Positions 21,101 to 46,074 of a stretch of DNA of 51,302 nt are shown one piece after another (position 1 is the first letter of the stretch; every line of letters begins with the position of its first letter). This DNA is from Lachnospiraceae bacterium A4 (lineage in GTDB: Bacteria > Bacillota > Clostridia > Lachnospirales > Lachnospiraceae), in the NCBI GenBank assembly GCA_000403215.2, contig KE159531.1:88005-139306 (forward strand). The letters run 5' to 3'. A model generated the notes under the pieces. The model searched no databases, was not told where the DNA came from, and saw nothing but the letters and a program-made list of their open reading frames with translations. Both the position numbers and the translations under genes were made by a program.

Positions 21101-22927
21101 ATGAAACAAAAACAAAGATCAGTGATAAGCTGGCTTGTCGAATTTGCGGGGACACACAAAAGGCTTTACACAGCCAGCGTGCTGCTTGCCGTATGCGGCG
21201 TTGCATGCAGCATCGCGCCCTATATTCTTATGGGCGATATCGTGACGGAGCTGGTGGGCGGTGTAAAACAGTGGGAGGGGTATCGAAACGCGTGTATTCT
21301 GATGGCGCTGTTTTGGGCACTGCGCGTGGTATTCCATGCATTGTCTACGACCTGTTCCCACAAGGCAACTTTTCATGTGCTTGGGAACATCCGCAAGAGC
21401 GTCTGCGGGAAACTGGCGCGGGTGGCGCTCGGACGGGTGCTGGAAACGCCGTCGGGCAGTCTGAAAAACATTATTGTGGAGCGGATTGACAGCATTGAGA
21501 CGACGCTTGCCCATGTGCTGCCGGAGTTTACGGCAAACCTCCTTGCGCCGCTTGCGATTTTTATCTATTTGTGCATAATCGACTGGCGCATGGCGCTGGC
21601 GTCCTTAATCAGCCTTTTTCTGGGGCTGTTTGCTTACATGGGCATGATGGTGGGATATGAGGAGAGCTTTAAAAATACGGTGAAAAAAACGAAAATCCTC
21701 AACGATACGGCGGTGGAGTATATCAACGGCATCGAGGTCATCAAAGCGTTTGGCAGGGCGCAGAATTCTTATGAGAAATTTAAGAAGGCGGCAAAGGAGG
21801 GCGCGGACTGCTATGTGGAGTGGATGCGCCGGTGCAACGTGTTTTTCAGTATCGCCATGGTGGTGTTTCCCTGTACGGCAATTTCTATTCTGCCTATCGG
21901 TGGATTGCTTGTGAAAAATGGGAGTCTGGCGGTCTCAGATTTTATCCTCTGCATCATTCTGTCGCTTGGACTGATCACGCCGCTGATTACGGTGATGTCC
22001 TACTCGGACGATATCGGCAAGCTGCGGACGATTTTGGGGGAAGTGACGGAAGTGCTCTGTTGGGAAGAATTAAAACGCCCGGAATGCGACAGGAAGAAGC
22101 CAGCGGATTATTCCATCAATTTGCATAACGTGACATTCGGCTATGAAGAAAAGGAAGTATTGCATGGGATCAACATGGACATCCGCGAAGGAACTGTAAA
22201 CGCGCTGGTGGGACCTTCCGGCAGCGGAAAGTCCACCATTGCCAAGCTGATTGCATCCCTGTGGGACGTGGACGGCGGCAGCATTCTAATCGGCGGCGTG
22301 GATATCCGGGAGCTGTCATTGGAGGAATACAACCGCAGGGTGGCTTATGTGTCACAGGACAATTATCTGTTTGACGACACCATCCGCGAAAATATCCGTA
22401 TGGGGCGCATGGACGCCACGGACGCGGAGGTGGAGGAAGTGGCAAAAAAGAGCGGATGCCACGAGTTTATCATGGGACTCGAAAAGGGATATGACACGGT
22501 GGCAGGCGGCGCGGGAGGGCATCTTTCCGGCGGGGAAAGACAGCGTATCGCCATTGCACGGGCGATGTTAAAGGATGCGCCGATTGTCATTTTAGACGAG
22601 GCGACCGCTTACACCGATCCGGAAAATGAAGCGGTGATTCAGGCGGGCGTGGCAAGGCTGGTGCAGGGAAAGACGCTGATCGTGATTGCCCACAGACTGT
22701 CCACCATTGCCGACGCGGATAAAATCTTTGTGGTGAACGGCGGCAGGATCGTGGAGGAGGGCACACACGGGGAGCTGCTGGCAAAAGGGAAACTGTATGC
22801 GAAGATGTGGGAATCGCACATCAGCGCGAGAAGTATTTCTAATGACGTTCCGCCGTTGGACGGAACGCCAAGAAGTACTATGTCTCGCGCGGGAGAATGC
22901 CCAAATACGGCATTCTCCGCATTATAG
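21101..22927 (+). CDS. ABC transporter half, pair 4 subunit A
   Basis: This protein of about 608 aa has the A-subunit motif LAHVLPE after IDSIETT and the coupling segment RVALGRVLETPSGSL. Walker A GPSGSGKST, signature LSGGE, Walker B IVILDEAT and IAHRL are intact; the D-loop is AYTDPEN. ATG 21101 follows AAAGGAATGG; an earlier in-frame ATG at 21077 has no ribosome site and touches the box. The C-terminus after SHISAR is an unusual tail of about 30 residues read through structured element A, which overlaps the gene's 3' end. Confidence 0.9.
   Translation: MKQKQRSVISWLVEFAGTHKRLYTASVLLAVCGVACSIAPYILMGDIVTELVGGVKQWEGYRNACILMALFWALRVVFHALSTTCSHKATFHVLGNIRKSVCGKLARVALGRVLETPSGSLKNIIVERIDSIETTLAHVLPEFTANLLAPLAIFIYLCIIDWRMALASLISLFLGLFAYMGMMVGYEESFKNTVKKTKILNDTAVEYINGIEVIKAFGRAQNSYEKFKKAAKEGADCYVEWMRRCNVFFSIAMVVFPCTAISILPIGGLLVKNGSLAVSDFILCIILSLGLITPLITVMSYSDDIGKLRTILGEVTEVLCWEELKRPECDRKKPADYSINLHNVTFGYEEKEVLHGINMDIREGTVNALVGPSGSGKSTIAKLIASLWDVDGGSILIGGVDIRELSLEEYNRRVAYVSQDNYLFDDTIRENIRMGRMDATDAEVEEVAKKSGCHEFIMGLEKGYDTVAGGAGGHLSGGERQRIAIARAMLKDAPIVILDEATAYTDPENEAVIQAGVARLVQGKTLIVIAHRLSTIADADKIFVVNGGRIVEEGTHGELLAKGKLYAKMWESHISARSISNDVPPLDGTPRSTMSRAGECPNTAFSAL
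22825..22918 (+). repeat. Structured intercistronic element A
   Basis: The outer stem CGCGAGA (22825-22831) / TCTCGCG (22883-22889) continues into AGTATTTCT / AGAAGTACT, with a 3-base ATG bulge on the 3' side. Inside is the hairpin CGTTCCG / CGGAACG. A second hairpin, GGAGAATGCC / GGCATTCTCC with a 7-base loop, follows and ends 26 bases before the subunit B start. The layout matches elements B (29247) and C (45969). Confidence 0.7.
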
Positions 22928-22944
22928 AAAGGAAGGTGCTGTCT

Positions 22945-24675
22945 ATGATTAAAATATACCGGAAATTTTTCTCCTTCTGTGGGGAGAACAGCAGGAAATT
23001 TTATATTTCGCTTGTGTATGGCGTGATCCTTGCCTTTATGGAAGCGATGAAGATACCGGCTGTTATGCTGATGCTGCAGGGAGCCATCAGCGGGAATATC
23101 ACGGGGGGACTGATTCTACAGTGCATGGGGATTCTGGTCGGCTCTCTGGCGGTGGGTTCTTTTGTCAAATACCGCGCCACAATCGTACAATGTGAGGCGG
23201 GCTATGGGACGGCGGCAAACAAACGGATTGAAATCGCGGAGCATCTACGATATCTCCCGATGGGATACTTCAACGAAAACAGTCTGGGGTATATCACTTC
23301 CGTAACGACAAACACGATGGAACATCTGGCGGATATAGCAACGCGGGTGGTCATGCTGACAACGCAGGGCGTGCTGACAACGGTTCTGATTGCCTTGATG
23401 TTGTTTCTCTATGACTGGCGGATTGGGCTGGTGCTGTGCGCTGGTATGGTATTGTTCTTTGCCGTAAACAGCCGGATGCAGCAGAAGGCAAAAGCGGTTG
23501 CCCATCGAAAGACGAAAAGTGATTCCGCCCTTGTGGAAAAGGTCATCGAGTATGTGCAGGGCATTGCGGAGGTAAAAGGCTGCAATCTGACAGGAAAGAC
23601 GGCGAAGAAGCTGGAGGAAGCCATAGATGACAATACAGATGTCAATATCGCGATGGAGTTGATTTTTGTGCCGTTTATGGCGTTGCAGAACGGTGTGATT
23701 AAGCTCACGGGCGTTGTGATGACGGCGCTTTCCATCTGGTTTTATTTACAGGGCAGCATGGCGCTTCTGACCTGTATCGGTATGACGATCTGTTCCTTTA
23801 TGGTCTTTGCCAGCTTGGAGCAGGCGGGGAATTATTCGACGCTGCTGCGCCAGATTGGACTGACGGTGGATAAGGCGCAGGATATTTTAAATATTCCAGC
23901 AATGGATATTGACGGCAAAGACATCGTGCCGGAGAATCATAATGTGGAGCTGGCGGATGTGGATTTCAGTTATGAGAAAAAGAAGATCATTGACAATGTT
24001 TCCCTGCGGATTCCCGAAAAGACCACCACGGCGATCGTGGGACCTTCCGGCGGGGGAAAGACGACGCTGTGCCACTTGATTGCGCGGTTCTGGGACGCGG
24101 ATAAAGGCAGTGTGCTGCTTGGCGGCAGGAATGTGAAGGAGTACAGCTACGACAGCCTGATGCGCAATTTCAGCTTTGTGTTTCAGAATGTCTATCTGTT
24201 TCAGGACACCATAGCCAACAATATTCGTTTCGGGCAGGAGGACGCGCCCATGGAACGGGTCGTGGAGGCGGCGAAAAAGGCGTGCTGCCACGATTTCATC
24301 ATGGCGCTGCCGGACGGGTATGACACGGTGATCGGCGAGGGCGGCGCAAGCCTTTCCGGCGGGGAGAAACAGCGCATCAGCATTGCCCGCGCTATTATGA
24401 AGGACGCGCCGGTCATTATTCTGGACGAGGCGACGGCAAACGTTGACCCGGAGAACGAGCAGGAGCTGATGGCTGCAATCGACGCCCTGACAAGGGAGAA
24501 GACGATCTTTATGATTGCCCACAGGTTAAAGACCGTGCGGAATGCGGACAGAATCCTTGTGGTGGACAGCGGGAGGATTGTCCAGCAGGGAAAGCATGAG
24601 GAGCTGATGCGGGAAGAAGGCATTTATAAGCGGTTCGTGCAGTCGAGGGAACTGGCTGCAGGGTGGAAGCTGTAG
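22945..24675 (+). CDS. ABC transporter half, pair 4 subunit B
   Basis: This protein of about 576 aa is the B-type partner of the preceding gene, with coupling motif RYLPMGYFNENSLGY. Walker A GPSGGGKTT, signature LSGGE, Walker B VIILDEATANVD and IAHRL are intact. ATG 22945 has GAAAGGAAGG in front; the frame extends further upstream only through element A. It is closest to pair 3 B (shared FQNVYLF, IKFG/IRFG, DSLMKN/DSLMRN). It is the last of the eight ABC halves. Confidence 0.9.
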   Translation: MIKIYRKFFSFCGENSRKFYISLVYGVILAFMEAMKIPAVMLMLQGAISGNITGGLILQCMGILVGSLAVGSFVKYRATIVQCEAGYGTAANKRIEIAEHLRYLPMGYFNENSLGYITSVTTNTMEHLADIATRVVMLTTQGVLTTVLIALMLFLYDWRIGLVLCAGMVLFFAVNSRMQQKAKAVAHRKTKSDSALVEKVIEYVQGIAEVKGCNLTGKTAKKLEEAIDDNTDVNIAMELIFVPFMALQNGVIKLTGVVMTALSIWFYLQGSMALLTCIGMTICSFMVFASLEQAGNYSTLLRQIGLTVDKAQDILNIPAMDIDGKDIVPENHNVELADVDFSYEKKKIIDNVSLRIPEKTTTAIVGPSGGGKTTLCHLIARFWDADKGSVLLGGRNVKEYSYDSLMRNFSFVFQNVYLFQDTIANNIRFGQEDAPMERVVEAAKKACCHDFIMALPDGYDTVIGEGGASLSGGEKQRISIARAIMKDAPVIILDEATANVDPENEQELMAAIDALTREKTIFMIAHRLKTVRNADRILVVDSGRIVQQGKHEELMREEGIYKRFVQSRELAAGWKL

Positions 24676-24682
24676 GAAGGCG

Positions 24683-24729
24683 GGCAGGAACGGTTTCATA
24701 GAACGGGATATTTTGGGGCTGTTTCTGCC
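24683..24729 (+). terminator. Inverted repeat after ABC pair 4
   Basis: GGCAGGAAC (24683-24691) pairs with GTTTCTGCC (24721-24729) with one G-T pair around a 29-base loop. It is probably a weak terminator, since only AAATGTTTTGG follows. Confidence 0.4.
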
Positions 24730-24783
24730 AAATGTTTTGGTTCATATATTTTTGTGACCGGTTTGACAGTTTTGAAAATGGTA

Positions 24784-24836
24784 TTGACAGGACATCCCTT
24801 ATCATGCTATTCTGTATAAGGTTAGATATAACTAAC
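24784..24836 (+). promoter_or_regulatory. Promoter and first box for the DUF3793 gene
   Basis: TTGACA at 24784-24789 is followed by TATTCT at 24808-24813 (18-base spacing). Immediately downstream lies the box GTTAG-ATATAA-CTAAC (24821-24836), placed to block initiation. Confidence 0.65.
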
Positions 24837-24853
24837 TAAAAAGGAAGATACAG

Positions 24854-24872
24854 AATGCCAAAGGGCATTTTT
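24854..24872 (+). terminator. Mini-hairpin between two boxes
   Basis: AATGCC-AAAG-GGCATT is followed by TTT. It is a small attenuator-like stem in the leader of the DUF3793 gene, flanked by the two GTTAG-N6-CTAAC boxes. Confidence 0.4.
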
Positions 24873-24885
24873 ATTTACCTCATAA

Positions 24886-24901
24886 GTTAGGAAAAACTAA
24901 C
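24886..24901 (+). promoter_or_regulatory. Second GTTAG-N6-CTAAC box for DUF3793
   Basis: GTTAG-GAAAAA-CTAAC ends 18 bases before the DUF3793 start, next to the ribosome site, and gives this gene two boxes 65 bases apart. Confidence 0.65.
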
Positions 24902-24919
24902 CAGAAAGGAAGAGGATAA

Positions 24920-25498
24920 ATGGAAGCTGTGGATACAGAAAATATATCGGAGGAGCTGGTGATATTCCACTGTTCGCCGACAATGGCAGGGCTGAAAACG
25001 GGCAGTCTGTTTAATTGTCCCGTTAAGAACAATAGGACATTCTTGGAAAATATCCGGGAGATGAACAGGCGTCTGCTTCCGCGGGGCGTGCGGATTGTCC
25101 CTCTGAAGAACATGGGGAAAAGCGTGCTGGTTTATATGTACCGCCCTGACAGGCTGCGGGAGGATCTGGGCGACAGCAGGGCACGGAAGATTCTGGAGGA
25201 GCGGGATTATCCCGTGGAGGAAACAGAGAAATGCATTGTGGAACTGGTGCGCCGCTTAGAGGACGGGGAAGCATTTCCGCATGAGATTGGGTTGTTCCTC
25301 GGCTATCCGCCGGAGGACGTGGACGGGTTTATCAGAAACGGCGCGGCGGGGGCAAAGTGTATCGGGACATGGAAGGTGTACGGAAACGTGGAAACCGCAC
25401 AGCGCAAGTTTGCGCAGTACAAAAAATGCACAAGGCTGTACTGGGAGGCATTCCAGAAACACCGTTCGTTTGACAGGCTTGTTGTGAGGTGTTCGTAA
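24920..25498 (+). CDS. DUF3793-family protein
   Basis: This 192-aa soluble protein matches, as I recall it, the DUF3793 family by its second-half motif HEIGLFLGYPPEDVDGF and the later CIGTWKVYG and YKKCTRLYW. The biochemical role is unknown, but members are often found beside feo genes and flavodoxins in Clostridia, consistent with an iron-linked function. ATG 24920 follows GAAAGGAAGAGG. Two boxes in the leader place it firmly in the putative iron regulon. Confidence 0.8.
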   Translation: MEAVDTENISEELVIFHCSPTMAGLKTGSLFNCPVKNNRTFLENIREMNRRLLPRGVRIVPLKNMGKSVLVYMYRPDRLREDLGDSRARKILEERDYPVEETEKCIVELVRRLEDGEAFPHEIGLFLGYPPEDVDGFIRNGAAGAKCIGTWKVYGNVETAQRKFAQYKKCTRLYWEAFQKHRSFDRLVVRCS

Positions 25499-25623
25499 AT
25501 GTTGTTTTTACGGGAAACAGTTTTATGATTGGTACAGAACAATATACAGACAAATACATAATGGAAAGGATGGTTCGCGTATCATTTGGGGAGAAAAGTT
25601 ATAAATTTTGCACAATACGATGG

Positions 25624-25639
25624 GTTAGCATTCCCTAAC
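25624..25639 (+). promoter_or_regulatory. Distal box upstream of feoA1
   Basis: GTTAG-CATTCC-CTAAC, about 100 bases upstream of the main feo operator. Further GGTTAG half-sites occur at 25645-25650 and 25665-25670. Confidence 0.55.
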
Positions 25640-25684
25640 GTATTGGTTAGTATGATGAAACTGAGGTTAGTGATAAAAATTGCG

Positions 25685-25738
25685 TTGACAAAGATCGTGT
25701 GCAGTCATATTATAATATATGGTTAGCGAGTGCTAACC
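25685..25738 (+). promoter_or_regulatory. feo promoter and core operator
   Basis: TTGACA at 25685-25690 is followed by TATTAT (17-base spacing) within a stretch that also contains TATAAT at 25711-25716. The palindrome GGTTAGC-GAGT-GCTAACC (25721-25738) sits at the expected start of transcription. This is the best-formed operator in the iron block. Confidence 0.78.
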
Positions 25739-25755
25739 TCTATTTAACACATAAA

Positions 25756-25771
25756 GTTAGTAAAAACTAAT
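25756..25771 (+). promoter_or_regulatory. Proximal box upstream of feoA1
   Basis: GTTAG-TAAAAA-CTAAT lies 24 bases before the feoA1 start, the third full box in this leader. Confidence 0.6.
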
Positions 25772-25795
25772 ACATATTCAAAAGAAGGTGAACAC

Positions 25796-26008
25796 ATGAT
25801 GCCGCTTACATTAGCAGAAGCAGGAGAGGAAAACATCATCAGGAAAATCGGAGGAAAGCAGGAAGTCAAGGCACATTTGGAGAACCTCGGATTTGTTGTG
25901 GGAGGGACGGTCACGGTGGTAAATGCCATCGGGGGCAATGTGATCGTGAATGTGAAGGACTCCCGTGTTGCGGTCAGCAAAGAAATGGCACAGAAGATTA
26001 TGGTCTGA
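25796..26008 (+). CDS. feoA: FeoA-type ferrous iron transport accessory protein 1
   Basis: This 70-aa SH3-like protein has the FeoA pattern: MMPLTLAEAGEENIIRKIGG, then HLENLGFVVGGTVTVV, a Gly-Gly-Asn turn, and VNVKDSRVAVSKEMAQKI. It is thought to support FeoB at the cytoplasmic face. GAAGGTGA precedes the ATG pair at 25796/25799. It is the first of two tandem feoA genes and has its own three-box promoter. Confidence 0.92.
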   Translation: MMPLTLAEAGEENIIRKIGGKQEVKAHLENLGFVVGGTVTVVNAIGGNVIVNVKDSRVAVSKEMAQKIMV

Positions 26009-26071
26009 GTAAAACATTAAGAAACTCTTCGGCAGTAAAGAACGCTGCAAAGGGTGATTAAATGTTTCAAT

Positions 26072-26101
26072 ATCATGGACTCTGGGAAAGGGTTCCATGA
26101 T
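26072..26101 (+). other. Hairpin between the two feoA genes
   Basis: ATCATGGA (26072-26079) pairs with TCCATGAT (26094-26101) around a purine-rich loop, with TAAAAATTT after it. It could attenuate or protect the transcript between feoA1 and feoA2. Confidence 0.45.
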
Positions 26102-26137
26102 TAAAAATTTATTATGAAATGAGGAGGAAAAACGGGA

Positions 26138-26365
26138 ATGAAGACACTGAAGGAATCAAAGGTCGGCGATACCGTCCGGGTGGTAAAGCTCCACGGGGAA
26201 GGCGCGGTCAAACGCCGTATCATGGACATGGGACTGACAAAGGGCGTGGATGTGCAGATCCGCAAGGTGGCACCTTTGGGCGATCCGATAGAGGTGACCG
26301 TCCGCGGTTATGAGCTTTCGATCCGGAAAGCGGACGCGGAAATGATTGAAGTCGAAAACGCATAA
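26138..26365 (+). CDS. feoA: FeoA-type protein 2
   Basis: This 75-aa FeoA domain protein has the core GEGAVKRRIMDMGLTKGVDV, then RKVAPLGDPIEVTVRGYELS and IRKADAEMIEV. It is closer to classic FeoA than the first copy, which lacks the RRIMDMGL segment. GAGGAGG lies upstream of ATG 26138. feoB follows 80 bases later with a box in between. Tandem FeoA proteins before FeoB are common in Clostridia. Confidence 0.92.
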   Translation: MKTLKESKVGDTVRVVKLHGEGAVKRRIMDMGLTKGVDVQIRKVAPLGDPIEVTVRGYELSIRKADAEMIEVENA

Positions 26366-26408
26366 AAAGCGTTTACAGGGGGTTATCCCCTTTATTTTCA
26401 GACAGATA

Positions 26409-26424
26409 GTTAGCGAAAACTAAT
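26409..26424 (+). promoter_or_regulatory. Box upstream of feoB
   Basis: GTTAG-CGAAAA-CTAAT lies 21 bases before the feoB start. The 16 bases match the pair 2 box exactly. Confidence 0.6.
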
Positions 26425-26445
26425 ATATAGAAGGAGAGGAAAACT

Positions 26446-28848
26446 ATGAGTATGCGAATTGCCCTTGCGGGCAACCCGAACTGCGGGAAAACGACATTAT
26501 TCAATGCCCTGACAGGCTCCAACCAGTTTGTCGGAAACTGGCCGGGCGTTACGGTGGAAAAGAAGGAAGGAAAGTTAAAGAGGCATGACGGCGTGACCAT
26601 CACCGACCTTCCCGGTATTTATTCCCTTTCACCCTATACACTGGAGGAAGTGGTGGCAAGAAATTATCTCATCAGTGAGCGCCCAGATGCGATTCTGAAT
26701 CTGGTTGACGGTACAAATTTGGAGAGAAACCTTTATCTGACGACACAGCTTACCGAGCTTGGCATCCCTGTGGTTGTAGCTGTCAACATGATGGATGTGG
26801 TGGAGAAAAACGGTGACAAAATTAATACCGGGGAATTATCGAGGGCGTTAGGGTGTAAGGTAGTCGAAATTTCCGCCTTGAAAGGAAACGGAATCATGGA
26901 AGCTGCAGAGGCCGCAATCAATGCGGCAAAGAACGGCAAGACTGTTCCGATGCATACTTTTGCAGGAACCGTAGAACATGCCCTTGCCCATATCGAGGAG
27001 GCGGCGGTACACGGACTGCCGGAGGAACAGCAGCGTTTTTATGCCATCAAGCTGTTTGAGCGGGATGATAAAGTTTTGGAGCAGCTGAACCTGAGTGAGT
27101 CTGTCCTTTCCCATATTGAAACGGATATTAAGGCTGCCGAGGAGGAGATGGATGACGACGCGGAATCCATTATCACCAACGAGCGGTATATTTATATCGG
27201 AAGCATTATCAAGGGATGTCTGAAAAAGAAGTCGGCGGGAAAGATGACAAATTCGGACAAAATTGACAGGATTGTGACAAACCGTTTTCTTGGGCTTCCG
27301 ATTTTTGCGGCGATCATGTTTCTTGTGTATTATATTTCCATGGTGACGGTGGGGGCCTCCGCCACAGATTGGGCAAATGACGGACTGTTCGGCGACGGTT
27401 GGCATCTGCTTGGCATCGGATCTTCCGCTTATGAAGATGCGGCGGGAGAATATGGCGACGCAGCGCTGATCGTGGATGGCTATGATGCTTATGTGGAAGA
27501 AAACGGCACCGCGCCCACGGGCGATTTCCCTTATGAGGTGGCGGATGATGAAACGCTGGAAGTGACGGTGGAGACGGCTTCCCTTGCGGATTACGAGGCT
27601 GCGCTTGCAGTGATGGAGCAGTATGGTGACGAGCCTGATCCGGCGGCTTACGGCGTATGGGTTCCGGGCATTCCGGTTCTTGTAGGAAATGCGTTGGAAG
27701 CGGCAGGTGCGGCAGACTGGCTTGCAGGGTTGATCAATGACGGTATTGTAGCCGGTGTGGGCGCGGTGCTTGGCTTTGTGCCGCAGATGCTTGTTCTGTT
27801 CCTGCTTCTTGCCTTTTTGGAGGCGTGCGGCTATATGGCGCGTATCGCATTTGTACTGGATCGGATCTTCCGCAAGTTCGGATTGTCCGGCAAGTCCTTT
27901 ATTCCGATGCTCATCGGTACCGGCTGCGGCATTCCGGGTATCATGGCGTCGAGGACGATTGAGAACGAGCGCGACCGCAGGATGACGATTATGACGACGA
28001 CCTTTATCCCCTGCGGCGCGAAGGTGCCGTTCATTGCCATGGTGGCGGGCGCGATCTTCGGCGGCTCTGCATGGGTGGCAACGAGCGCGTACTTTGTAGG
28101 CATGGCGGCAATCATTATTTCCGGTATCATGTTAAAGAAAACGAAAATGTTTTCCGGCGACCCGGCTCCTTTCGTGATGGAGCTTCCGGCTTACCATATG
28201 CCCACGGTGGGCAATGTGCTGCGCTCCATGTGGGAACGCGGGTGGTCCTTCATCAAGAAGGCGGGCACGATTATTCTGCTTTCCACTATCGTTATTTGGT
28301 TTACGACATACTTTGGATTTACTGCGGAAGGCTTCCGTATGCTTGGCGAGGAGGAAATGGATCAGTCACTTCTTGCGGCGGTCGGCAGTGCGATTGCATG
28401 GATTTTCATACCGCTTGGATGGGGCAACTGGCAGGCGGCAGTGGCGTCCATCACGGGTCTTGTGGCGAAGGAAAATATCGTTGGTACAATGGGTATCCTT
28501 TATCCCGGCGGATGGTCTGAGATTGGCGCAAACTTCAGTCAGCTTGCGGGATACTCATTCCTGGTGTTCAACCTTCTGTGTGCGCCCTGCTTTGCGGCGA
28601 TTGGCGCCATCAAGCGGGAGATGAACAATGCGAAATGGACGTGGTTTGCGATTCTGTACCAGTGCGGATTGGCTTACGCGGTGGCGTTGATGGTTTACCA
28701 GATTGGTTCTGCATTTACAGGAAACTTGAATATCATTGGTCTGCTTGCAGCTATCGTAATCCTCGGAGGTATGATCTACATGCTGTTTAGGCCGTACAAA
28801 GAGGCGACGAAGCTGACCACAAATATGAAACTGAAAATGGCGAAGTAA
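26446..28848 (+). CDS. feoB: FeoB ferrous iron transporter
   Basis: This 800-aa membrane transporter couples a GTPase-like domain to Fe2+ uptake. G-domain motifs are GNPNCGKT (residues 9-16), DLPG (54-57), NMMD (114-117) and SALKG near 143. The membrane core carries GTGCGIPGIMASRTIENER and IPCGAKVPF, with GLVAKENIVGTMG near the C-terminus. Between the first and second membrane helices (about residues 308-410) is an acidic insert of about 100 residues rich in Asp, Glu, Ala and Tyr that most FeoB proteins lack. The ribosome site is AAGGAGAGG before ATG 26446. It is expressed with feoA2 and/or its own box. Confidence 0.95.
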   Translation: MSMRIALAGNPNCGKTTLFNALTGSNQFVGNWPGVTVEKKEGKLKRHDGVTITDLPGIYSLSPYTLEEVVARNYLISERPDAILNLVDGTNLERNLYLTTQLTELGIPVVVAVNMMDVVEKNGDKINTGELSRALGCKVVEISALKGNGIMEAAEAAINAAKNGKTVPMHTFAGTVEHALAHIEEAAVHGLPEEQQRFYAIKLFERDDKVLEQLNLSESVLSHIETDIKAAEEEMDDDAESIITNERYIYIGSIIKGCLKKKSAGKMTNSDKIDRIVTNRFLGLPIFAAIMFLVYYISMVTVGASATDWANDGLFGDGWHLLGIGSSAYEDAAGEYGDAALIVDGYDAYVEENGTAPTGDFPYEVADDETLEVTVETASLADYEAALAVMEQYGDEPDPAAYGVWVPGIPVLVGNALEAAGAADWLAGLINDGIVAGVGAVLGFVPQMLVLFLLLAFLEACGYMARIAFVLDRIFRKFGLSGKSFIPMLIGTGCGIPGIMASRTIENERDRRMTIMTTTFIPCGAKVPFIAMVAGAIFGGSAWVATSAYFVGMAAIIISGIMLKKTKMFSGDPAPFVMELPAYHMPTVGNVLRSMWERGWSFIKKAGTIILLSTIVIWFTTYFGFTAEGFRMLGEEEMDQSLLAAVGSAIAWIFIPLGWGNWQAAVASITGLVAKENIVGTMGILYPGGWSEIGANFSQLAGYSFLVFNLLCAPCFAAIGAIKREMNNAKWTWFAILYQCGLAYAVALMVYQIGSAFTGNLNIIGLLAAIVILGGMIYMLFRPYKEATKLTTNMKLKMAK

Positions 28849-29246: not shown

Positions 29247-29374
29247 GTGTGAGAAGAACTTCTGGCTGCCTTCGGCAGTTTTCGCTCGCAGCAAAGGCTG
29301 TATCGCAAAGTCAGCACAGCTGACTTGGGAGTTCTATATCTTACGCCGGAGAATGCCTAAAAGCGGCACTCTCC
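29247..29374 (+). repeat. Structured intercistronic element B
   Basis: The outer stem GTGTGAGA (29247-29254) / TCTTACGC (29339-29346, two G-T pairs) continues into AGAACT / AGTTCT with a 3-base ATA bulge on the 3' side. Inside are the hairpins CTGCC-TTC-GGCAG and GTCAGC-ACA-GCTGAC. The 3' hairpin GGAGAATGCC / GGCACTCTCC (one mismatch, 7-base loop) ends 23 bases before the DUF6110 start. It has the same design as elements A and C. Confidence 0.7.
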
Positions 29375-29397: not shown

Positions 29398-29730
29398 ATG
29401 TTTGGATTTTTGGATAAAATAGACAGGAAACACATGGGCATTTTTGCGGCGGGCGTTCTGTTCGGCACGGCGGGGATTAAAATCCTTTCCGGCAGGGATG
29501 CCAAAAAAGTATATACACACGGCACGGCTGCCGCGCTCCGGGCAAAGGATTTCTGCATGAAGACGGCGGCTGCGGTGCAGGAAAATGCGGAGGATATCTA
29601 TGCGGAAGCTGTCCAGATCAACGAGGAAAGGGTAAGGCAGGAGGCAGAGCAGGTGATTTCCGACGAGGAGGATTGGGAAGAAGAAACAGTTTCTGAGAGA
29701 AAGGACATTTCCGGGGAAGACAGCATATGA
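29398..29730 (+). CDS. DUF6110-family small membrane-associated protein
   Basis: This 110-aa protein begins MFGFLDKIDRKHMGIFAAGV with a hydrophobic span (about residues 13-28), then SGRDAKKVYTHGTAAALRAK and a long acidic helix with a Glu-rich end. This layout matches DUF6110 proteins encoded just before heavy-metal P-type ATPases. The last four bases overlap the ATPase start (ATGA), so translation is coupled. GTGGAGG precedes ATG 29398. It is probably an accessory subunit of the ATPase; direct evidence is lacking. Confidence 0.75.
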   Translation: MFGFLDKIDRKHMGIFAAGVLFGTAGIKILSGRDAKKVYTHGTAAALRAKDFCMKTAAAVQENAEDIYAEAVQINEERVRQEAEQVISDEEDWEEETVSERKDISGEDSI

Positions 29731-38421: not shown

Positions 38422-38505
38422 GGTTGGCTTTTAATTGTACGATGTGACTGGTAAGTTTGTGGACTATTGGTTATAGACGATGTATAGATAACAGGAGGAA
38501 ATGAT

Positions 38506-39009: not shown

Positions 39010-39033
39010 TTTGATAACAAATATGTATTTTGT

Positions 39034-39744: not shown

Positions 39745-39757
39745 AATCTCACCTCTT

Positions 39758-39800
39758 TGTTTGAATTCAAACATACTTGCTCTGCTTATTTTACTATAAT
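39758..39800 (+). promoter_or_regulatory. Crp/Fnr-type operator and promoter of the redox cluster
   Basis: A perfect 16-base palindrome TGTTTGAATTCAAACA (39758-39773) lies upstream of TATAAT (39795-39800). There is no good -35 hexamer. With a start about 7 bases after the -10, the palindrome is centred at about -41.5, the class II activator position. It also sits in the leader of the divergent regulator, allowing feedback. Confidence 0.65.
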
Positions 39801-39839
39801 GTAATCACCAAAGCAAGAAAATAAATAAAGGAGGATATC

Positions 39840-40529
39840 ATGATAAAGTACGAGGAATGGAAGGATAAAAAGAAAGACTTCTTCAAAGTGGATGTACGCC
39901 ATGTGCAGGGAAATTTCTTTCCCGGCTTACAAAGACGTGCCATGACGCTAAAAGCCGGGGAGGGAATTGAGGTCATACAGACTTTTGAACCTTACCCGCT
40001 ATATAAGGAGATGGATATGCTGGGGTATATACATCATACAGAGAAGCTGGCAGAAAATGAGTTTCATGTCTGGTTTTACCGGACAGAGGAAAAAGAGCCG
40101 GAAGGCTCTGCACCATACCGTCCGCTTGCATTGCTGAATTATCCTATGATTGATGAGGACTTAGGGCGTATCGCGGCGGATTTTTGGCAGGCAACATGGC
40201 AGAGTGAGAAGCGCACTCTCCCCTATGAAATGCGTCTGCTCCTTTCCCTGACAAATGCAGTTGGCGCAGGAAGAATGAGGCAGGCTGTGCGGGAACTGGT
40301 AAAGGCATATATCTATGGTCTTGAATCCGCAGCGCTGGATGATGTGTTTGAACTTTTGGCATGGAATCAGGGGATCGGATTTTTCAGCTCGGAAATTGGA
40401 CCTTCACCGCTTTTTCAAGCGTATAAGATGATTAAGACGCAGGAACAAAGAGGCATAAGCAGGGAAGAAATCTGCACCGAGATAAAAGAAAAGTTTGGCG
40501 AAAAAAATCAGGAAGTGCAAGTGTTGTAA
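39840..40529 (+). CDS. DUF2249-type protein with C-terminal helical domain
   Basis: This 229-aa protein has an N-terminal DUF2249/TusA-like segment (residues about 15-78; DVRHVQGNFFPGLQRRAMTL, then VIQTFEPYPLY and EFHVWFYR). The C-terminal half is all-helical (LLSLTNAVGAGRMRQAVREL, then AWNQGIGFFSSEIGPSPLF). DUF2249 proteins accompany hemerythrins and nitric-oxide response genes in many anaerobes. AAGGAGG precedes ATG 39840. It is the first gene of the operon driven by the Crp/Fnr-type promoter. Confidence 0.72.
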   Translation: MIKYEEWKDKKKDFFKVDVRHVQGNFFPGLQRRAMTLKAGEGIEVIQTFEPYPLYKEMDMLGYIHHTEKLAENEFHVWFYRTEEKEPEGSAPYRPLALLNYPMIDEDLGRIAADFWQATWQSEKRTLPYEMRLLLSLTNAVGAGRMRQAVRELVKAYIYGLESAALDDVFELLAWNQGIGFFSSEIGPSPLFQAYKMIKTQEQRGISREEICTEIKEKFGEKNQEVQVL

Positions 40530-40558
40530 CAGGAAAGAAAGATAGGGAGGAAAATAAT

Positions 40559-40744
40559 ATGGCAATCACAAAGGAAATGTTACTTGGAGAAATTTTAAGA
40601 ACCAAACCGGAGGCGGCAGAGGTGTTGATGCAGATGGGGATGCACTGTTTAGGGTGCCCGTCCTCACAGATGGAGAGCCTTGCGGATGCCTGCATGGTGC
40701 ATGGGCTGGATGCCGATGAACTCTTGAAAAAGCTGAATTCATAG
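40559..40744 (+). CDS. DUF1858 / ScdA-N-like redox protein 1
   Basis: This 61-aa protein has GEILRTKPEAAEVLMQMGMH then CLGCPSSQMESLADACMVHG. The CLGC pair near residue 30 and the 60-residue length match the hybrid-cluster-protein-associated DUF1858 domain, also found as the N-terminal domain of iron-sulfur repair proteins (RIC/ScdA). GGGAGG lies upstream. The hemerythrin that RIC proteins carry in the same chain is encoded separately two genes downstream. Confidence 0.82.
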   Translation: MAITKEMLLGEILRTKPEAAEVLMQMGMHCLGCPSSQMESLADACMVHGLDADELLKKLNS

Positions 40745-40754
40745 GAGGAGTGCA

Positions 40755-41366
40755 ATGAGCGCATTTTTAGGTTCGATTCATCACTGGCTATACGGAAAAA
40801 TAGAGTTCCAAAACGGGCTAGTTGAAAGATTATCAGATATGATAAGCAAAAACGGGTATGATGATGGCATTCTTTCCGAAATGGAACAAAAGTATGGGGC
40901 GGTGGAGAAAGGCAGTCTTGAAAATATGATTGATAACAGTAATATACATGGCTGGTTACAGGATAAAATCGCTGCCGCTGAAAACCGCCTTGCTTTTCTG
41001 GTCATCTCAACGATGGATGCCCATTCTGAATGTATGCCGGATATTGCGAATGCTGCATATGAGTATGGACGGAGCAGGAAACTGTCGGGGAAAACAAGCG
41101 CAGAAGAAGTTTATAGGCATTTGGATAATCTGCTATTGAACGGAATGCCTTGTGACAGGGTTAATACTGTGGTTTCCATAAGTCAGGAGGCAGTAGTATG
41201 GAAACAGACTGTGGATATACATTTGCCATATTGGGAAGCATTACAAGGAGATGTCAGTCATTATTATGACCTGAAGGAGAGGCTGATCGCAGGTATTTTG
41301 GAGGGCAGCGGTTTTTCCTACAAATATTTAGGAAATCAGACATTCACATTGATTAAGGAGGGATAA
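40755..41366 (+). CDS. Conserved protein of unknown function in the hemerythrin operon
   Basis: This 203-aa protein is soluble and mostly helical in character, with no motif I recognise. Notable segments are RLAFLVISTMDAHSECMPDI, NGMPCDRVNTVVSIS and a Trp/His-rich part near residue 155. It starts 10 bases after the DUF1858 gene behind AGGAGGAGTG and ends 3 bases before the hemerythrin gene, so it is certainly co-expressed with them and probably belongs to the same stress response. Confidence 0.65.
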   Translation: MSAFLGSIHHWLYGKIEFQNGLVERLSDMISKNGYDDGILSEMEQKYGAVEKGSLENMIDNSNIHGWLQDKIAAAENRLAFLVISTMDAHSECMPDIANAAYEYGRSRKLSGKTSAEEVYRHLDNLLLNGMPCDRVNTVVSISQEAVVWKQTVDIHLPYWEALQGDVSHYYDLKERLIAGILEGSGFSYKYLGNQTFTLIKEG

Positions 41367-41369
41367 ATA

Positions 41370-41915
41370 ATGTATGGAATTGATTTACTGATGAAAGAAC
41401 ATGAGAATATCGTAGCACTGACTAAGCATTTAAGGAGAACCTGCTGTGCTGTGATTGAGGGGGCAGACATTGATGTTCAGGAGTTTCTGGAGTGTATTGA
41501 TTTTGCAAGAACTTATGCAGACAAGCATCATCATGGAAAGGAAGAACAGATATTGTTTCGGTTTATGCTTAATAATTCCGATCCTGTTGCAGAAAAACTG
41601 GTGCGCAATGGAATGCTGGTGGAACATGACTTCGGAAGATTCCATATCGGGGAATTGGAGAACGCAGTTAAGCAGTATGCCAGTGTTCCGACTACAGAAG
41701 GAAAGCTGGATATCGTCACCCATGCATCGGGTTATGTGGATTTATTGCAGCGTCACATTGAGAAAGAAGATACCGTCTGCTACACTTATGCATTACGAAC
41801 ACTGTCAGAGGAATGCAAAGCGCAGATTGATGAACAGACAAGAGCGTTTGAGAAAAAAGCGGAACAGGACGGCATACAGGAGAAATATATTACATGGTTA
41901 GAAAAAAGAAGATAG
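41370..41915 (+). CDS. Hemerythrin-domain protein
   Basis: This 181-aa four-helix protein has hemerythrin-like iron ligands: His in LLMKEHENI (about residue 11), HHHGKEEQILF (about 52-62), EHDFGRFHIGE (about 90), and RHIEKEDTVCY near 130. The pattern fits the di-iron cation-binding hemerythrin family involved in iron-sulfur repair or in O2/NO sensing. It starts 3 bases after the preceding gene. Together with the DUF1858 proteins it could make a split RIC-like system. Confidence 0.88.
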   Translation: MYGIDLLMKEHENIVALTKHLRRTCCAVIEGADIDVQEFLECIDFARTYADKHHHGKEEQILFRFMLNNSDPVAEKLVRNGMLVEHDFGRFHIGELENAVKQYASVPTTEGKLDIVTHASGYVDLLQRHIEKEDTVCYTYALRTLSEECKAQIDEQTRAFEKKAEQDGIQEKYITWLEKRR

Positions 41916-41919
41916 GCGA

Positions 41920-42156
41920 ATGGGTAAAGTTGTTGATTTCACAAAAACAGTTTCAGAGCTGGTAAGTGAAAATCCTGAAATAAAAGAGGTATTGGCAGAA
42001 GCAGGGTTTAAGGAAATTATAAAGCCTATGTCTTTAGCTGTAATGGGTAAGGTAATGACGATACCAAATGGAGCTGCCATAAAAAATATTCCTATGGACA
42101 AAGTTTTTGAAACTTTTGAGAAACATGGGTTTGAGGTGAAAACAGAAACATCTTGA
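41920..42156 (+). CDS. DUF1858-like protein 2
   Basis: This 78-aa protein reads MGKVVDFTKTVSELVSENPE then IKEVLAEAGFKEIIKPM. It resembles DUF1858 in the helix pattern (EL, NPEIKEVLAEAGF) but lacks the CxxC of the first copy, so it cannot use that disulfide. It starts 4 bases after the hemerythrin stop with no strong ribosome site, suggesting translational coupling. Confidence 0.65.
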   Translation: MGKVVDFTKTVSELVSENPEIKEVLAEAGFKEIIKPMSLAVMGKVMTIPNGAAIKNIPMDKVFETFEKHGFEVKTETS

Positions 42157-42201
42157 ACGGGTGGTTAAAAATCAGGCTGAGGGAAGGAGCAAACGAACAG
42201 T

Positions 42202-42531
42202 ATGGAAAAAATAAAAAATATAGACAAGGCAGAAATTTTAGTTTTAAAAGAACAGGTTGCTTACTAAAGCAATCAGGTTGTAAGCAGGACTTTAGCACAA
42301 AATAATGCGCTGAGTGTCACATTGTTTTCTTTTGACAAGGGAGAAGAAATCAGCAGCCATGAGTCCAGTGGTGATGCCTTTGTGATTTGTTTGGATGGCG
42401 TTGGCGAGATTACGATTGATGACAAAAAGTATGAACTGCATGAGGGAGAATCTATCGTAATGCCCGCAAAACACCCTCATGCGGTCTTGGGTAAAGAGCA
42501 GTTTAAAATGTTGCTGGTTGTTGTATTTTAG
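42202..42531 (+). pseudogene. Cupin gene with an in-frame stop
   Basis: From ATG 42202 the frame reads 21 codons (MEKIKNIDKAEILVLKEQVA then Y), meets TAA at 42265-42267, and continues in the same frame without other defects as SNQVVSRTLAQNNALSVTLF and a complete small cupin (SSHESSGDAFVICLDG, HEGESIVMPAKHPHAVLG) to 42531. Relatives have Gln at the stop, as I recall, so a single CAA-to-TAA change explains it. AAGGAGC precedes the ATG. It could be a dead gene, or translation might restart downstream. Confidence 0.7.
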
Positions 42532-42548
42532 CGAAAGGGGGATGCGGC

Positions 42549-42737
42549 ATGAGGGTGAATGTAGATCAGAATGCTTGTATTGGATGCGGGCTGTGTGTTG
42601 GGATGGCACCTGATGTATTCCGTATGAATGACGATGATAAGGCGGAGGGGTATCAGGACTCTGCACCGGAAAACGAAAGCATGGTACAGGATGCCGTTCG
42701 TTCCTGTCCTGTTTCCGCTATTGAATGGGAGGAATAG
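42549..42737 (+). CDS. Ferredoxin ([4Fe-4S] type)
   Basis: This 62-aa protein has the cluster motif CIGCGLC at residues 10-16 and a fourth Cys in SCPVSAIEW near the C-terminus, with an acidic middle. That is the pattern of single [4Fe-4S] ferredoxins, which pass electrons to redox enzymes. GGGGG precedes ATG 42549. It lies between the broken cupin and the truncated lactate dehydrogenase. Confidence 0.85.
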   Translation: MRVNVDQNACIGCGLCVGMAPDVFRMNDDDKAEGYQDSAPENESMVQDAVRSCPVSAIEWEE

Positions 42738-42739
42738 AG

Positions 42740-43240
42740 ATGATAAAAACAATTAACCCAAGAAAAGCAGCAGTCATCGGCTGTGGATTTGTAGGCGCTG
42801 CAACAGCATTTACACTGATGCAGAGCAGGCTGTTCACTGAAATGGTGCTTCTTGATGCAAATTATGATAAAGCAGACGGAGAAGCAAAGGACATTTCGCA
42901 TGGCGTTCCGTTTGCCGGACAGATGAAGATTTATGCAGGAGGCTATGATGACCTGATGGATGCTTCTATTGTCATTGTGACTGCCGGGGCAAACCAGAAG
43001 CCGAATGAAACAAGGCTCGATTTAGTACATAAAAATGTTGCTATCTACAAAAGCATCATTCCTGAAATTGCAAAGCGCAATTTTAAAGGAATATTGCTGA
43101 TTGTATCAAATCCGGTTGATATTCTTACTTATGCTGCTGTAAAGCTGAGCGGGTTTCCTGAAAAAAGAGTAATTGGTTCCGGAACGGTTCTTGATACCGC
43201 AAGGCTAAAATATGCGCTTAGTAAACATTTAGGCACTTAA
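42740..43240 (+). pseudogene. L-lactate dehydrogenase, 3' half missing
   Basis: ATG 42740 behind GGGAGGAAT encodes 166 aa of a normal LDH of about 315 aa: Rossmann motif GCGFVGAA (about residues 14-21), VTAGANQKPNETRLDL, SNPVDILTYAAVKLSG and VIGSGTVLDTARLKYALSKH. The sequence is lost after LG; the catalytic His and substrate region are absent. The break lies next to the 500-aa probable mobile-element gene on the opposite strand, and the rest of LDH is not found on its other side, so insertion came with deletion. Confidence 0.85.
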
Positions 43241-43249
43241 CAATGAAAT

Positions 43250-43281
43250 CTTGCGCAAAATGGCAAAATTTTTTGCGTAAG
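43250..43281. repeat. Hairpin at the left edge of the probable mobile element
   Basis: CTTGCGCAAAA (43250-43260) pairs with TTTTGCGTAAG (43271-43281) with one G-T pair. It lies between the LDH break and the stop of the minus-strand gene and could be that gene's terminator or an element end. No matching terminal repeat was found near 44810-44870. Confidence 0.5.
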
Positions 43282-43289
43282 AAAAATAC

Positions 43290-44792
43290 CTATGCCAATT
43301 CTGGTATAAGCACAAGGTTTTTGACGGTAAGTCCTGCGGCAATGATTTCTTTGCCATAGGCTGTGGCGAAATATTTGTAAGAGCCCTGCACCCTTTCAAT
43401 GATCCCATGGAGACGGAGACGTTTAAATATCCTGGACATGGCTGACGGACTGATATTTTCAAAATGCTGGCGGATATCCTTTCCCTGCATCCCGAAAGTC
43501 ATGTACTCGCCCCGGCTGATCACTTCCAGCACATGCAGGTCACGCTCCGCAAAGAAATTCAGTCCGCGGTAAGAGCGCCCCTTGTCCACAACGGAATCGG
43601 TAACCTTTGTAAGGTTTTCCTTCCCGCCGCTGTGGTCATCGAAAGATGAGATGAATTCCAGGTACCGGTAGTTTGCAGCTTTCATAATCGTGAACAGCTG
43701 GTAAAGGCTGTAAATGCTTTTTTTCAATGGAGCCTTTTGTTCCGATGAACTGCCGTCCCTATGTTCCACTTTCCGTTTTACCCTGAAAGTGCTGATATCG
43801 TTGCTGGTGCTTTCTATCCGTAAGACGCAGCCAAACTTATCATACATTTTGATTGATACATCACCCATATGGTGTTTGATCCTCGTTCCGAGAATACGCA
43901 CGTTATAGTTGGTGCCGACTTCCTTCTTACAGTTATAGGTAATACGCTGTCCCAGGAAGGTGGCGGTGTTGTCCGGCTTTACCGTAAAGACTGCGGTCCG
44001 GATGATCTCGTCATAAAGGGGGCCGAGGTCGCCCGGCTGTTTGAACATGACGTCTGTTGCACACTCAATCTGCTGGATCGTCCATGTGTAGCTCAGGCCG
44101 AGTGTTTCAGGAACCGGACAATAGCGTTTTGCAAAAGCATCCAGAACCTTATGGAGGTATTCTGGATTGATCCTGTCTGAGAGTTTCTGGGCGGCTTCCA
44201 CATCCGAGATTTCCAGGAAAGCATTATCATGCATGCGGTAAGTAATGCCCTTCTTCTGCAGTTTATGGGCGAGCAGGTTATGGCCGTTCATATAGAACTG
44301 CAGGCGGAAAGGCGCCCATGTAGGGACACGAAGGTAACAGAGCCCCAGTTCTTTGTCAATGAAATAGAAATAATAGTGGAGACATTTGCTCTGGTCAGAC
44401 TTAAGAAATGTCTTTCCCGTGGTCTTGTCATGCCAGGGTTTATAAGTATTGCACTGTTCCATGGCGGAAAAGATGTGGATCAGCCCCTCGGTCTTTCCGG
44501 TTTCCTGAATGATTTGCTGAATCCGGTCATCCTTGCGGAAAGCCCGAAGCTTACGAATGAATTCGATTTCAATGCCGTTTTCATCTGCGATGCGCTGGGC
44601 GTTTGCGCGGATTTGTTCCGTAAGAGGCTGGGAGAAATTTGAAAAATCAAAAATACGGATGTTGTTGGCATTCAGATAGCCTGTCATGCCTTCGGCATGG
44701 CTCCATCCAGGGATATACCCTTGGATGATCATGCGGTCATAACAGGTGATCGTACCATAAATTTTGTCAGCGTATTTATCTGTAAGTAACAT
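43290..44792 (-). CDS. Probable mobile-element protein with C-terminal winged helix
   Basis: This 500-aa protein begins MLLTDKYADKIYGTITCYDR. I recall near-identical proteins scattered in many bacterial genomes, often in several copies, which suggests a transposase-like or element-carried protein, though no DDE motif could be assigned by eye. The C-terminal 70 residues (SPSAMSRIFKRLRLHGIIER) look like a winged-helix domain, so databases sometimes label it MarR-like. ATG 44792 follows GGAGGATG; an upstream TTG at 44807 is less likely. It interrupts the ldh region on the opposite strand. Confidence 0.6.
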   Translation of the reverse strand: MLLTDKYADKIYGTITCYDRMIIQGYIPGWSHAEGMTGYLNANNIRIFDFSNFSQPLTEQIRANAQRIADENGIEIEFIRKLRAFRKDDRIQQIIQETGKTEGLIHIFSAMEQCNTYKPWHDKTTGKTFLKSDQSKCLHYYFYFIDKELGLCYLRVPTWAPFRLQFYMNGHNLLAHKLQKKGITYRMHDNAFLEISDVEAAQKLSDRINPEYLHKVLDAFAKRYCPVPETLGLSYTWTIQQIECATDVMFKQPGDLGPLYDEIIRTAVFTVKPDNTATFLGQRITYNCKKEVGTNYNVRILGTRIKHHMGDVSIKMYDKFGCVLRIESTSNDISTFRVKRKVEHRDGSSSEQKAPLKKSIYSLYQLFTIMKAANYRYLEFISSFDDHSGGKENLTKVTDSVVDKGRSYRGLNFFAERDLHVLEVISRGEYMTFGMQGKDIRQHFENISPSAMSRIFKRLRLHGIIERVQGSYKYFATAYGKEIIAAGLTVKNLVLIPELA

Positions 44793-44983
44793 GAACACAT
44801 CCTCCAACGTTTTTCTTTATTGTACTTGAAATGTGGAGGAATTGCAAAATCTTTTCCGGTTTATCCGGGTTAGGTAATAACTTAGAAACCATTCGGAACT
44901 TCTGTAAAAGGTGTGGATTGATTAAAATAAAATCATCAAGGCAAAAGCAAAAACACGGTTGCAGAAAATCATGGAGGTTGGCT

Positions 44984-46009
44984 ATGGAATATAGGACACT
45001 GGGAAAAGATCTGACAGTATCCGCGGTGGGGCTTGGCTGTATGGGAATGAGCCACGCTTACGGGGCACCGGCAGATAAAAATGAGATGAAAGAACTGATT
45101 GCGGAGGCTGTAGATATCGGATATACATTTTTTGATACGGCGGAAGTTTATGGTACGCCGGAAAATCCCCATCACAATGAAGAACTGGTAGGGGAAGCAT
45201 TGCGGCCGTATCGAAATAAAGTTGTGATAGCGACAAAGTTTGGAATCTATTTTGACATGGAAAGCAAACAGGTAAATAAACCGCTTCTGCCGGATTCCAG
45301 ACCGGAGGTTATCCGTGTCTCAGTAGAAAATTCCCTAAAGCGGCTGGGAACTGACCATATTGACCTGTACTATCAGCACCGCATTGACCCGTTTGTACCG
45401 GTTGAGGAGGTGGCGGGCGTCATGCAGGAGCTGATGCAGGAGGGAAAAATTACGCACTGGGGACTATCGGAAGCTGACGAGGAAACGATACGCCGCGCCC
45501 ATGCGGTCTGCCCGGTAACGGCGATCCAGAACCGCTATTCCATGATGGCGCGCTGGCATGAAGCGTTATTCCCCGTACTGGAGGAATTAAACATCGGTTA
45601 TGTGGCATTTTCGCCTTTAGCAAATGGATTTTTGTCCGCAAGGTATGGGAAAGAGACTAAGTTTGACGCGGGTACGGATTACCGGAGCGTGATGCCGCAG
45701 TTTACGCCGGGAGCTGTGGAACAGAATCAGAAACTGCTGGAGCTGGTCAGAACGGTTGCGGAAGGAAAGCACGCCACGCCCGGTCAGATTGCCCTTGCGT
45801 GGATGCTTGGGAAAAAACCATATCTGGTGCCAATCCCCGGAACGAGAAAGTCAGACCGCCTGAAAGAAAATGCGGGGGCATCGGATATTAAGCTGACGGA
45901 AAAAGAGATTGCGGTTTTGGATAAACAGCTCGATGCGATGGAAATGTCAGAGGTATTCGGCGGCACCAATGTGAGAAGAATTTCTAAGCGGTCTAAAAAC
46001 ACCCGCTAA
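44984..46009 (+). CDS. Aldo/keto reductase 1
   Basis: This 341-aa NADPH-dependent (beta/alpha)8 oxidoreductase of the YhdN/AKR13-like group begins MEYRTLGKDLTVSAVGLGCM. The catalytic set is visible: Asp and Tyr in FFDTAEVYG, Lys in IATKFG, His in DLYYQHRID. IPGTRKSDRLKEN near the C-terminus is the cofactor-binding loop. ATG 44984 follows ATGGAGG; codons further upstream are not protein-like. The final residues (RRISKRSKNTR) are read through structured element C. Confidence 0.9.
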   Translation: MEYRTLGKDLTVSAVGLGCMGMSHAYGAPADKNEMKELIAEAVDIGYTFFDTAEVYGTPENPHHNEELVGEALRPYRNKVVIATKFGIYFDMESKQVNKPLLPDSRPEVIRVSVENSLKRLGTDHIDLYYQHRIDPFVPVEEVAGVMQELMQEGKITHWGLSEADEETIRRAHAVCPVTAIQNRYSMMARWHEALFPVLEELNIGYVAFSPLANGFLSARYGKETKFDAGTDYRSVMPQFTPGAVEQNQKLLELVRTVAEGKHATPGQIALAWMLGKKPYLVPIPGTRKSDRLKENAGASDIKLTEKEIAVLDKQLDAMEMSEVFGGTNVRRISKRSKNTR

Positions 46010-46074
46010 GAAATTCTACGGTTCCAAAGGGCGGAACCTACTCACATGGAAGAACGCAAAAACAGCGTTCTTCC
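45969..46074 (+). repeat. Structured intercistronic element C
   Basis: The outer stem ATGTGAG (45969-45975) / CTCACAT (46041-46047) encloses a 15-bp hairpin AGAATTTCTAAGCGG / CCGCTAAGAAATTCT (one mismatch) and GGTTCC / GGAACC. It is followed at once by GGAAGAACGC / GCGTTCTTCC with a 7-base loop. The gene downstream starts 46 bases later. The 5' sequence TGTGAGAAGAATTTCT is nearly the same as in element B. Confidence 0.7.

Follow-up and report, generated by a model that had tools for sequence, protein, structure and literature searches.

Three structured elements between genes of the window

The window analysed here, a 51,302-nucleotide stretch of Lachnospiraceae bacterium A4 (assembly GCA_000403215.2, contig KE159531.1, positions 88,005 to 139,306 of the forward strand), carries three hairpin elements, A, B and C, each located between co-directional genes. 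Rather than representing one regulatory RNA three times, they belong to a dispersed repeat family that duplicates in tandem and is linked to the preceding gene's stop codon, whatever that gene is. A first-pass annotation had placed the elements correctly, except that the start of A was corrected to 22824. All features described in the window lie on the plus strand. In dinucleotide-shuffle tests, A, B and C gave folding energies of -55.3, -61.2 and -49.4 kcal/mol (z -8.9, -5.4 and -9.1, respectively), and for each of them 0 of 200 shuffles folded equally well.

Hairpin 1 of element A (22824..22890) is formed by an 8-bp outer stem (GCGCGAGA/TCTCGCGC), a mid stem with one G-U pair (AGTATTTCT/AGAAGTACT), an ATG bulge and an apical hairpin, and hairpin 2 (22892..22918) pairs GGAGAATGCC with GGCATTCTCC around a 7-nt loop. 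In element B, hairpin 1 (29247..29346) has an outer stem (GTGTGAGA/TCTTACGC) with two G-U wobbles, an ATA bulge and an apical part enlarged by extra hairpins, and hairpin 2 (29348..29374) harbours one A-C mismatch. Element C combines the outer stem ATGTGAG/CTCACAT and the mid stem AGAATTTCT/AGAAATTCT in hairpin 1 (45969..46047) with a hairpin 2 (46048..46074) made of GGAAGAACGC, a 7-nt loop and GCGTTCTTCC. The outer stems therefore do differ in letters and still pair, as originally described. A final 10-bp hairpin with a 7-base loop, attributed to all three elements, was recovered in A and C and not in B, where 9/10 positions pair; the 3-base bulge on the 3' side is present in A and B, its position in C being occupied by a nested hairpin (GGTTCC/GGAACC, 46020-46038) that leaves no plain 3-nt bulge.

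Two of the elements overlap the 3' end of the upstream gene. The ORF (open reading frame) preceding A (21077..22927; ABC transporter, PF00005/PF00664; TAG at 22925) reads through the entire element, which lacks the usual stops, so that this ORF is about 34 codons longer and its end is coded by the hairpins; within 22824-22927 the altered arms of A still pair. Element C is overlapped by an aldo/keto reductase ORF (44831..46009, PF00248) whose stop falls inside the apical part, and B starts 2 nt past a TAA. Downstream of A, B and C lie, respectively, a second ABC transporter (22945..24675), a DUF6110 ORF (29398..29730, PF19605) and an iron-containing alcohol dehydrogenase (46121..47266, PF00465). 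With the starts of these three ORFs picked by eye, the last hairpin ends 26, 23 and 46 nt before the next start, in agreement with the reported 23-46 bases. No tRNA or tmRNA was found in the window.

A repeat family of gut Lachnospiraceae

A MAFFT alignment of A, B and C was poor beyond the 5' arm, and relatives were therefore needed. The 5' motif occurred 6 times in the source genome, compared with 0 for a reversed-pattern control. Allowing up to 1 mismatch, it was present in 22/40 related genomes; the control matched 1-2 times in 8/40, so single motif matches there mean little. An alignment (A2) of 22 of the 31 collected copies plus C was the basis of a covariance model, R1, whose structure was taken from one copy. 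In the window, R1 scored 94.8 bits on A and 48.6 bits on C, which match by construction because both were training rows, and 47.5 bits on the untrained B; the next match, at 24.6 bits, was the reverse strand of A. R1 gave 13 matches in the source genome (E up to 0.1), a number of which proved partial or doubtful on reading. The further copies sought by this covariance-model search were found in 34/38 genomes of the genus (E up to 1e-6). These 34 had between 1 and 52 matches each, counts that are lower bounds since only the best candidates per genome were scored. Across the order, 4/146 genomes had matches at E up to 1e-5, all from one family: the source genome and three others, two of these weak. 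Finally, a pattern scan of named genomes returned at least 119 stretches, named as Lachnospiraceae, as members placed nearby, such as Roseburia, Blautia and Lachnoclostridium, or as unplaced bacteria. Many gut Lachnospiraceae carry the family, its copies directly following the stops of genes that are unrelated to one another.

The first-pass annotation had not recognised the elements as a named RNA. The search of the window against Rfam 15 gave 0 matches over the gathering cut-off, and a permissive search of 7 relatives gave one weak match only, below its own cut-off. No description of the family was found in the open-licence papers searched; it may be among the 3,161 candidate RNAs that PMC8040213 reports from human microbiomes.

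The core of the family consists of hairpin 1, with an outer stem of about 8 bp, a mid stem of 9 bp and a variable apical hairpin, and a 10-bp hairpin 2 immediately after it. The consensus of hairpin 1 reads RTGTGARA AGWAYTTCT AA up to the apical hairpin and, on the 3' side, AGAARTWCT, bulge, TYTCACAY. The bulge is usually a 3-nt AAG/AAA-type one on the 3' side; AAG (45), AAA (26), ATG (11) and ATA (7) together account for 89/101 rows. Within 60 nt, 31/79 copies have a GATTTG- or TTTGTG-like linker, which by eye often lies ahead of a third hairpin plus a stretch resembling GGAGG. Tandem arrays with periods of 111, 124 and 136 bp are present in three genomes. Hairpin 1 alone also forms an array, of four units in genome G020 (locus L331) and one in its close relative G017 (L343), Gnnn and Lnnn being our labels for genomes and loci; the outer arms of these two loci have changed together (GCGCGAAA/TTTCGCGC in L331, GCACGAAA/TTTCGTGC in L343).

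Copies follow stop codons in the sense orientation

Two samples of copies were aligned: alignment A3, with 102 matches (101 distinct rows) from 80 of the at least 119 named stretches, and alignment A4, with 106 rows. Their 208 rows contained 197 distinct ones, of which 171 were analysable for placement once tandem followers and copies with less than 630 nt of 5' flank had been left out. The position of each copy was related to same-strand ORFs of at least 100 codons, and the other strand served as a mirror test. An ORF ended within 150 nt of the element in 152/171 copies, compared with 82/170 in the mirror. A first mirror comparison at -4 to +20 (112/172 vs 5/167) was not symmetrical: seen from the 3' side, the stops within the element are farther from its edge, and the interval was for this reason widened to -4 to +60, where the values were 117/171 vs 24/170 (108 vs 6 for ORFs of at least 200 codons). 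Most ends were very close to the element, 112/171 lying at -4 to +20. The commonest stop positions were +1 (TA|G, 48 copies), +6 (the TGA of RTGTGA, 17), -1 (13), -2 (12), and 0 and +19 (7 each), and a stop of the gene itself just before the element (-4 to 0) was found 36 times vs 2 in the mirror. Completeness of the preceding gene was examined for aspS and argR only. The downstream gene was on the same strand in 56/65 cases (control, about 0.78). Sense orientation and stop placement favour action in the transcript.

The fold is kept while its sequence changes

The first-pass annotation had proposed covariation from three copies, and the larger samples bear it out. In alignment A3, 96.5% of the cells pair and 31/36 pairs show changes on both sides; two-sided cells amounted to 470 vs 123 in shuffles (0/500 shuffles as high) and to at most 62 in partner-slid controls. 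A3 was fitted to the structure, so that its covariation leans toward that structure. A structure-only scan, which does not depend on the model, used stems of at least 8 and at least 6 Watson-Crick pairs and a 3-nt 3' bulge. In the 119 pattern-selected loci it gave 139 matches, 127 with an AAG or AAA bulge; with the bulge set to 1, 2 or 4 nt, the same loci yielded 8, 1 and 3 matches, respectively. The consensus 5' motif was missing from 24 of the 139, some of these being cross-pairs of tandem copies or chance. A further 90 loci, totalling 322,525 bp and scanned on both strands, contained 12 matches. Three came from 60 loci retrieved around Y1 transposases and RecN, 0 with an AAR bulge; the other 9, all with AAG and all behind aspS, came from 30 loci retrieved around AspS, whose gene is followed by a copy in the source genome. 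Bulges of 1, 2, 4 and 5 nt gave 4, 4, 1 and 1 matches in these 90 loci, the 4-nt one being an aspS-gatC copy.

The aspS-gatC site allowed orthologous copies to be compared. Gene order was kept in 26/29 loci, and in 11 of these hairpin 1 follows the aspS stop directly (by eye), with outer arms as different as GTGTGAAA/TTTCACAC, AGGCGAAA/TTTCGCCT, AAACGAAA/TTTCGTTT and GCACGAAA/TTTCGTGC. Two-sided changes affected 11/17 pairs and 184/187 cells were Watson-Crick, which 0/2000 shuffles reached; several of the 11 copies are near-identical and represent fewer independent events. Their bulges were AAG (9), AGG (1) and AAAG (1). Compensatory changes were also seen between L159 and L075. That the fold outlives changes of its sequence suggests that it may have a job in messenger RNA. 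More generally, covariation between copies in one genome can stem from a repeat family.

Sites gain, lose and remodel copies

Behind thl, in the spacer to crt (names assigned from protein ends alone), 30 loci inspected by eye comprised 14 with hairpin 1 or a derivative, 2 with another palindrome, 1 with hairpin 2 alone and 13 with a spacer lacking such hairpins. Genomes G020, G051 and G017, with 97-98% identical gene ends, differ there in that hairpin 1 has been duplicated or lost, and the stretch between the hairpin's arms has become shorter in G041 and G002. In the argR-recN spacer, no AAR-bulged hairpin was found in 30 loci; L152 has a copy and the spacer of L151 is without element. Elsewhere, the apical hairpin has been replaced at an orthologous site (L106/L202) and hairpin 2 is absent (L128/L213). 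From one species to the next, sites acquire or drop copies, and existing copies are duplicated or shortened.

Different, bulge-free palindromes were observed behind the same stops in the thl-crt spacer of L376 (G040) and L392 (G048) and in the argR-recN spacer of L254 (G014), which suggests that other hairpins use the same place behind stop codons. The argR-recN spacers of L250, L252 and L255 contain AAATTTGTG-type hairpins without hairpin 1, and hairpins of this type also serve as hairpin 2 in some family copies.

A proposed stop-proximal hairpin in the message and its alternatives

We lean, if only just, towards the elements working as stop-proximal mRNA hairpins, like the E. coli repetitive extragenic palindromic sequences (REPs) near stop codons. 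Action in mRNA at the stop codon is inferred from the orientation, the placement and the REP precedent: PMC12306157 reports that translation in E. coli is lowered by REPs fewer than 16 nt away from a stop. A dispersed modular repeat sitting directly behind stop codons, and reading in the direction of the preceding gene, would then act post-transcriptionally through its bulged hairpin. The ribosome terminating at the adjoining stop would have to open the hairpin, and after its departure the hairpin would refold and shield the upstream message from 3'-to-5' decay, or be cut there; either outcome could set the relative output of the neighbouring cistrons. Shielding from 3' exonucleases has been proposed for pneumococcal repeats (PMC3049150). 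A bolder version, which we hold to be rather improbable, is that a mobile or duplicating element is inherited as a shape, both arms at a given site being rewritten together between species and the fold and abutting stop (and the bulge in most copies) being kept, and that the terminating ribosome is the signal opening and closing it; the family would then amount to an RNA switch coupled to translation termination and dispersed in repeat form.

Several observations weigh against an mRNA hairpin at the stop codon. Element A lies entirely within an ORF. Among the 112 copies with a stop at -4 to +20, there are 76 in which the element itself supplies some or all of that stop (+1 to +19), so some upstream genes may have been cut short, and copies that shorten genes would likewise produce part of the placement signal. 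The upstream gene is on the opposite strand for 13/78 first copies, and the mirror control at -4 to +60 (24/170) is above that of the narrower interval (5/167). At thl-crt, the strict bulged-hairpin scan had 0 matches in 30 loci, the derivatives there having lost or never had the strict form, and the hairpin has been lost between close species. The pairing statistics are also equivocal. In the outer, mid and second-hairpin stems, the G-U:A-C ratio was 30:31 in A3 vs 57:20 in A4, and it was 0:1 at aspS-gatC; in the apical part A-C outnumbered G-U by 34:8 (A3) and 36:14 (A4). Leaving out closing pairs, a post hoc choice, gave G-U:A-C ratios of 25:11 (A3) and 48:17 (A4), favouring G-U. Wobbles are rare overall, probably fewer than an RNA helix would be expected to show. 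Of the selected RNA fold originally proposed, orientation and placement speak for RNA, whereas G-U pairs are not clearly commoner than A-C; for the latter reason, the matched arms may have a DNA-level cause.

One such cause, which we consider unlikely, would be a mobile DNA hairpin, in which the folded single strand, bulge included, is recognised by a recombinase or transposase and inserted beside stops in one direction. It could be IS200/605-, REP- or attC-like, or a miniature inverted-repeat transposable element (MITE) with the hairpin 1 arms, which could serve as such, as 17-bp inverted repeats. The dispersal of copies would fit, as would their greater likeness within genomes (A3 similarity of 0.665 in 183 pairs within vs 0.602 in 4,943 pairs between genomes, exceeding the maximum of 1000 label permutations), the empty spacer of L151 opposite the occupied one of L152, the tandem arrays, and the near-perfect arms with few wobbles. 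However, no Y1 transposase was found in the copy-rich genomes G013 (37 copies), G009 (20) and G046 (12), none of 30 Y1 loci held a copy at E up to 0.01, and no integron integrase over the cut-off was found in 38 genomes. In the examined loci, arm pairs 160-3500 bp apart were found once only (L198), enclosing a DUF975 ORF and no transposase, and no longer element with the same ends plus a transposase was present; inspection of flanks by eye showed no consistent target duplication.

Equally doubtful, in our view, is that the copies are decaying, non-functional repeats, kept beside stops where they are least harmful, whose arms are matched by quasi-palindrome correction during replication. The gain, loss and stepwise shortening seen by eye at thl-crt, the patchy presence at aspS-gatC, the replaced apical hairpins (L106 vs L202), the few G-U pairs and the thl-crt derivatives without a strict bulge would fit decay. 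Nevertheless, correction of the arms should also erase the 3-nt bulge, yet AAG, AAA, ATG or ATA is kept in 89/101 rows, and avoidance of harm alone leaves the sense orientation (117/171 vs 24/170) unexplained. Transcription terminators or attenuators between cistrons, to which strong hairpins between genes might point, are very improbable, and an intrinsic terminator was rejected, because a run of five T within 12 nt after hairpin 2 occurs in 1/101 (A3) and 1/106 (A4) rows and copies show no preference for the last gene of a same-strand run (a same-strand gene follows in 56/65).

Structured repeats are common, but this family's one-orientation tie to the stops of unrelated genes, combined with freely covarying arms, makes it a natural experiment. 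Within one genus, species with the element at an orthologous site can be set beside species lacking it there (aspS-gatC, thl-crt), so that its effect on operon expression and ribosome release is directly measurable in gut Lachnospiraceae.

Comparison with known repeats

Like E. coli REPs and bacterial interspersed mosaic elements (BIMEs), the family consists of dispersed palindromes between genes, and some REPs also lie within 15 nt of a stop, 446/4,072 according to PMC12306157. Placement looks tighter here (112/171 at -4 to +20), the two measures not being the same. The unit described here differs in being a longer, usually bulged, two-hairpin one without a link to Y1 transposases, and its tandem copies are direct repeats, whereas BIMEs alternate (PMC2817692). 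GTAG and CGTC tags of REPs are named in PMC3733652; at the hairpin foot of our copies no such tag was seen by eye, the 5' flanks being variable and commonly TTA, ATA or CTA before G. A REP/BIME system with its RAYT transposase was rejected: PF01797 was present in 20/38 genomes and did not track copy number, and the 30 Y1 loci were without copies.

Pneumococcal BOX and RUP and enterobacterial RU are likewise small structured intergenic repeats, BOX being modular and transcribed (PMC3049150, PMC2759123). The stop-codon lock and the conservation of structure over sequence were measured for the present family only, and set against these repeats by description, it showed no target duplication or partner transposase.

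Integron attC sites are hairpins that follow stop codons and are conserved in structure but variable in sequence. They were rejected, with the TIGR02249 cut-off passed in 0/38 genomes and weaker, sub-cut-off matches in 37/38. Gene order at aspS-gatC and thl-crt is kept in most loci, unlike in attC cassette arrays.

Modular variants

Some copies depart from the two-hairpin core. L062 and L064 (C10 and C23 of the source genome) are short forms, in which hairpin 1 consists of nothing but the outer stem and a 9-nt loop, with hairpin 2 coming next. The RTGTGA at the 5' side offers a candidate start-stop reading. The 3' end of the unit offers a candidate Shine-Dalgarno sequence. In L133, L116, L115 and others, a third hairpin plus ATGGAGGTTA end the unit just before the apparent next start codon, as though a ribosome-binding site came along with the repeat.

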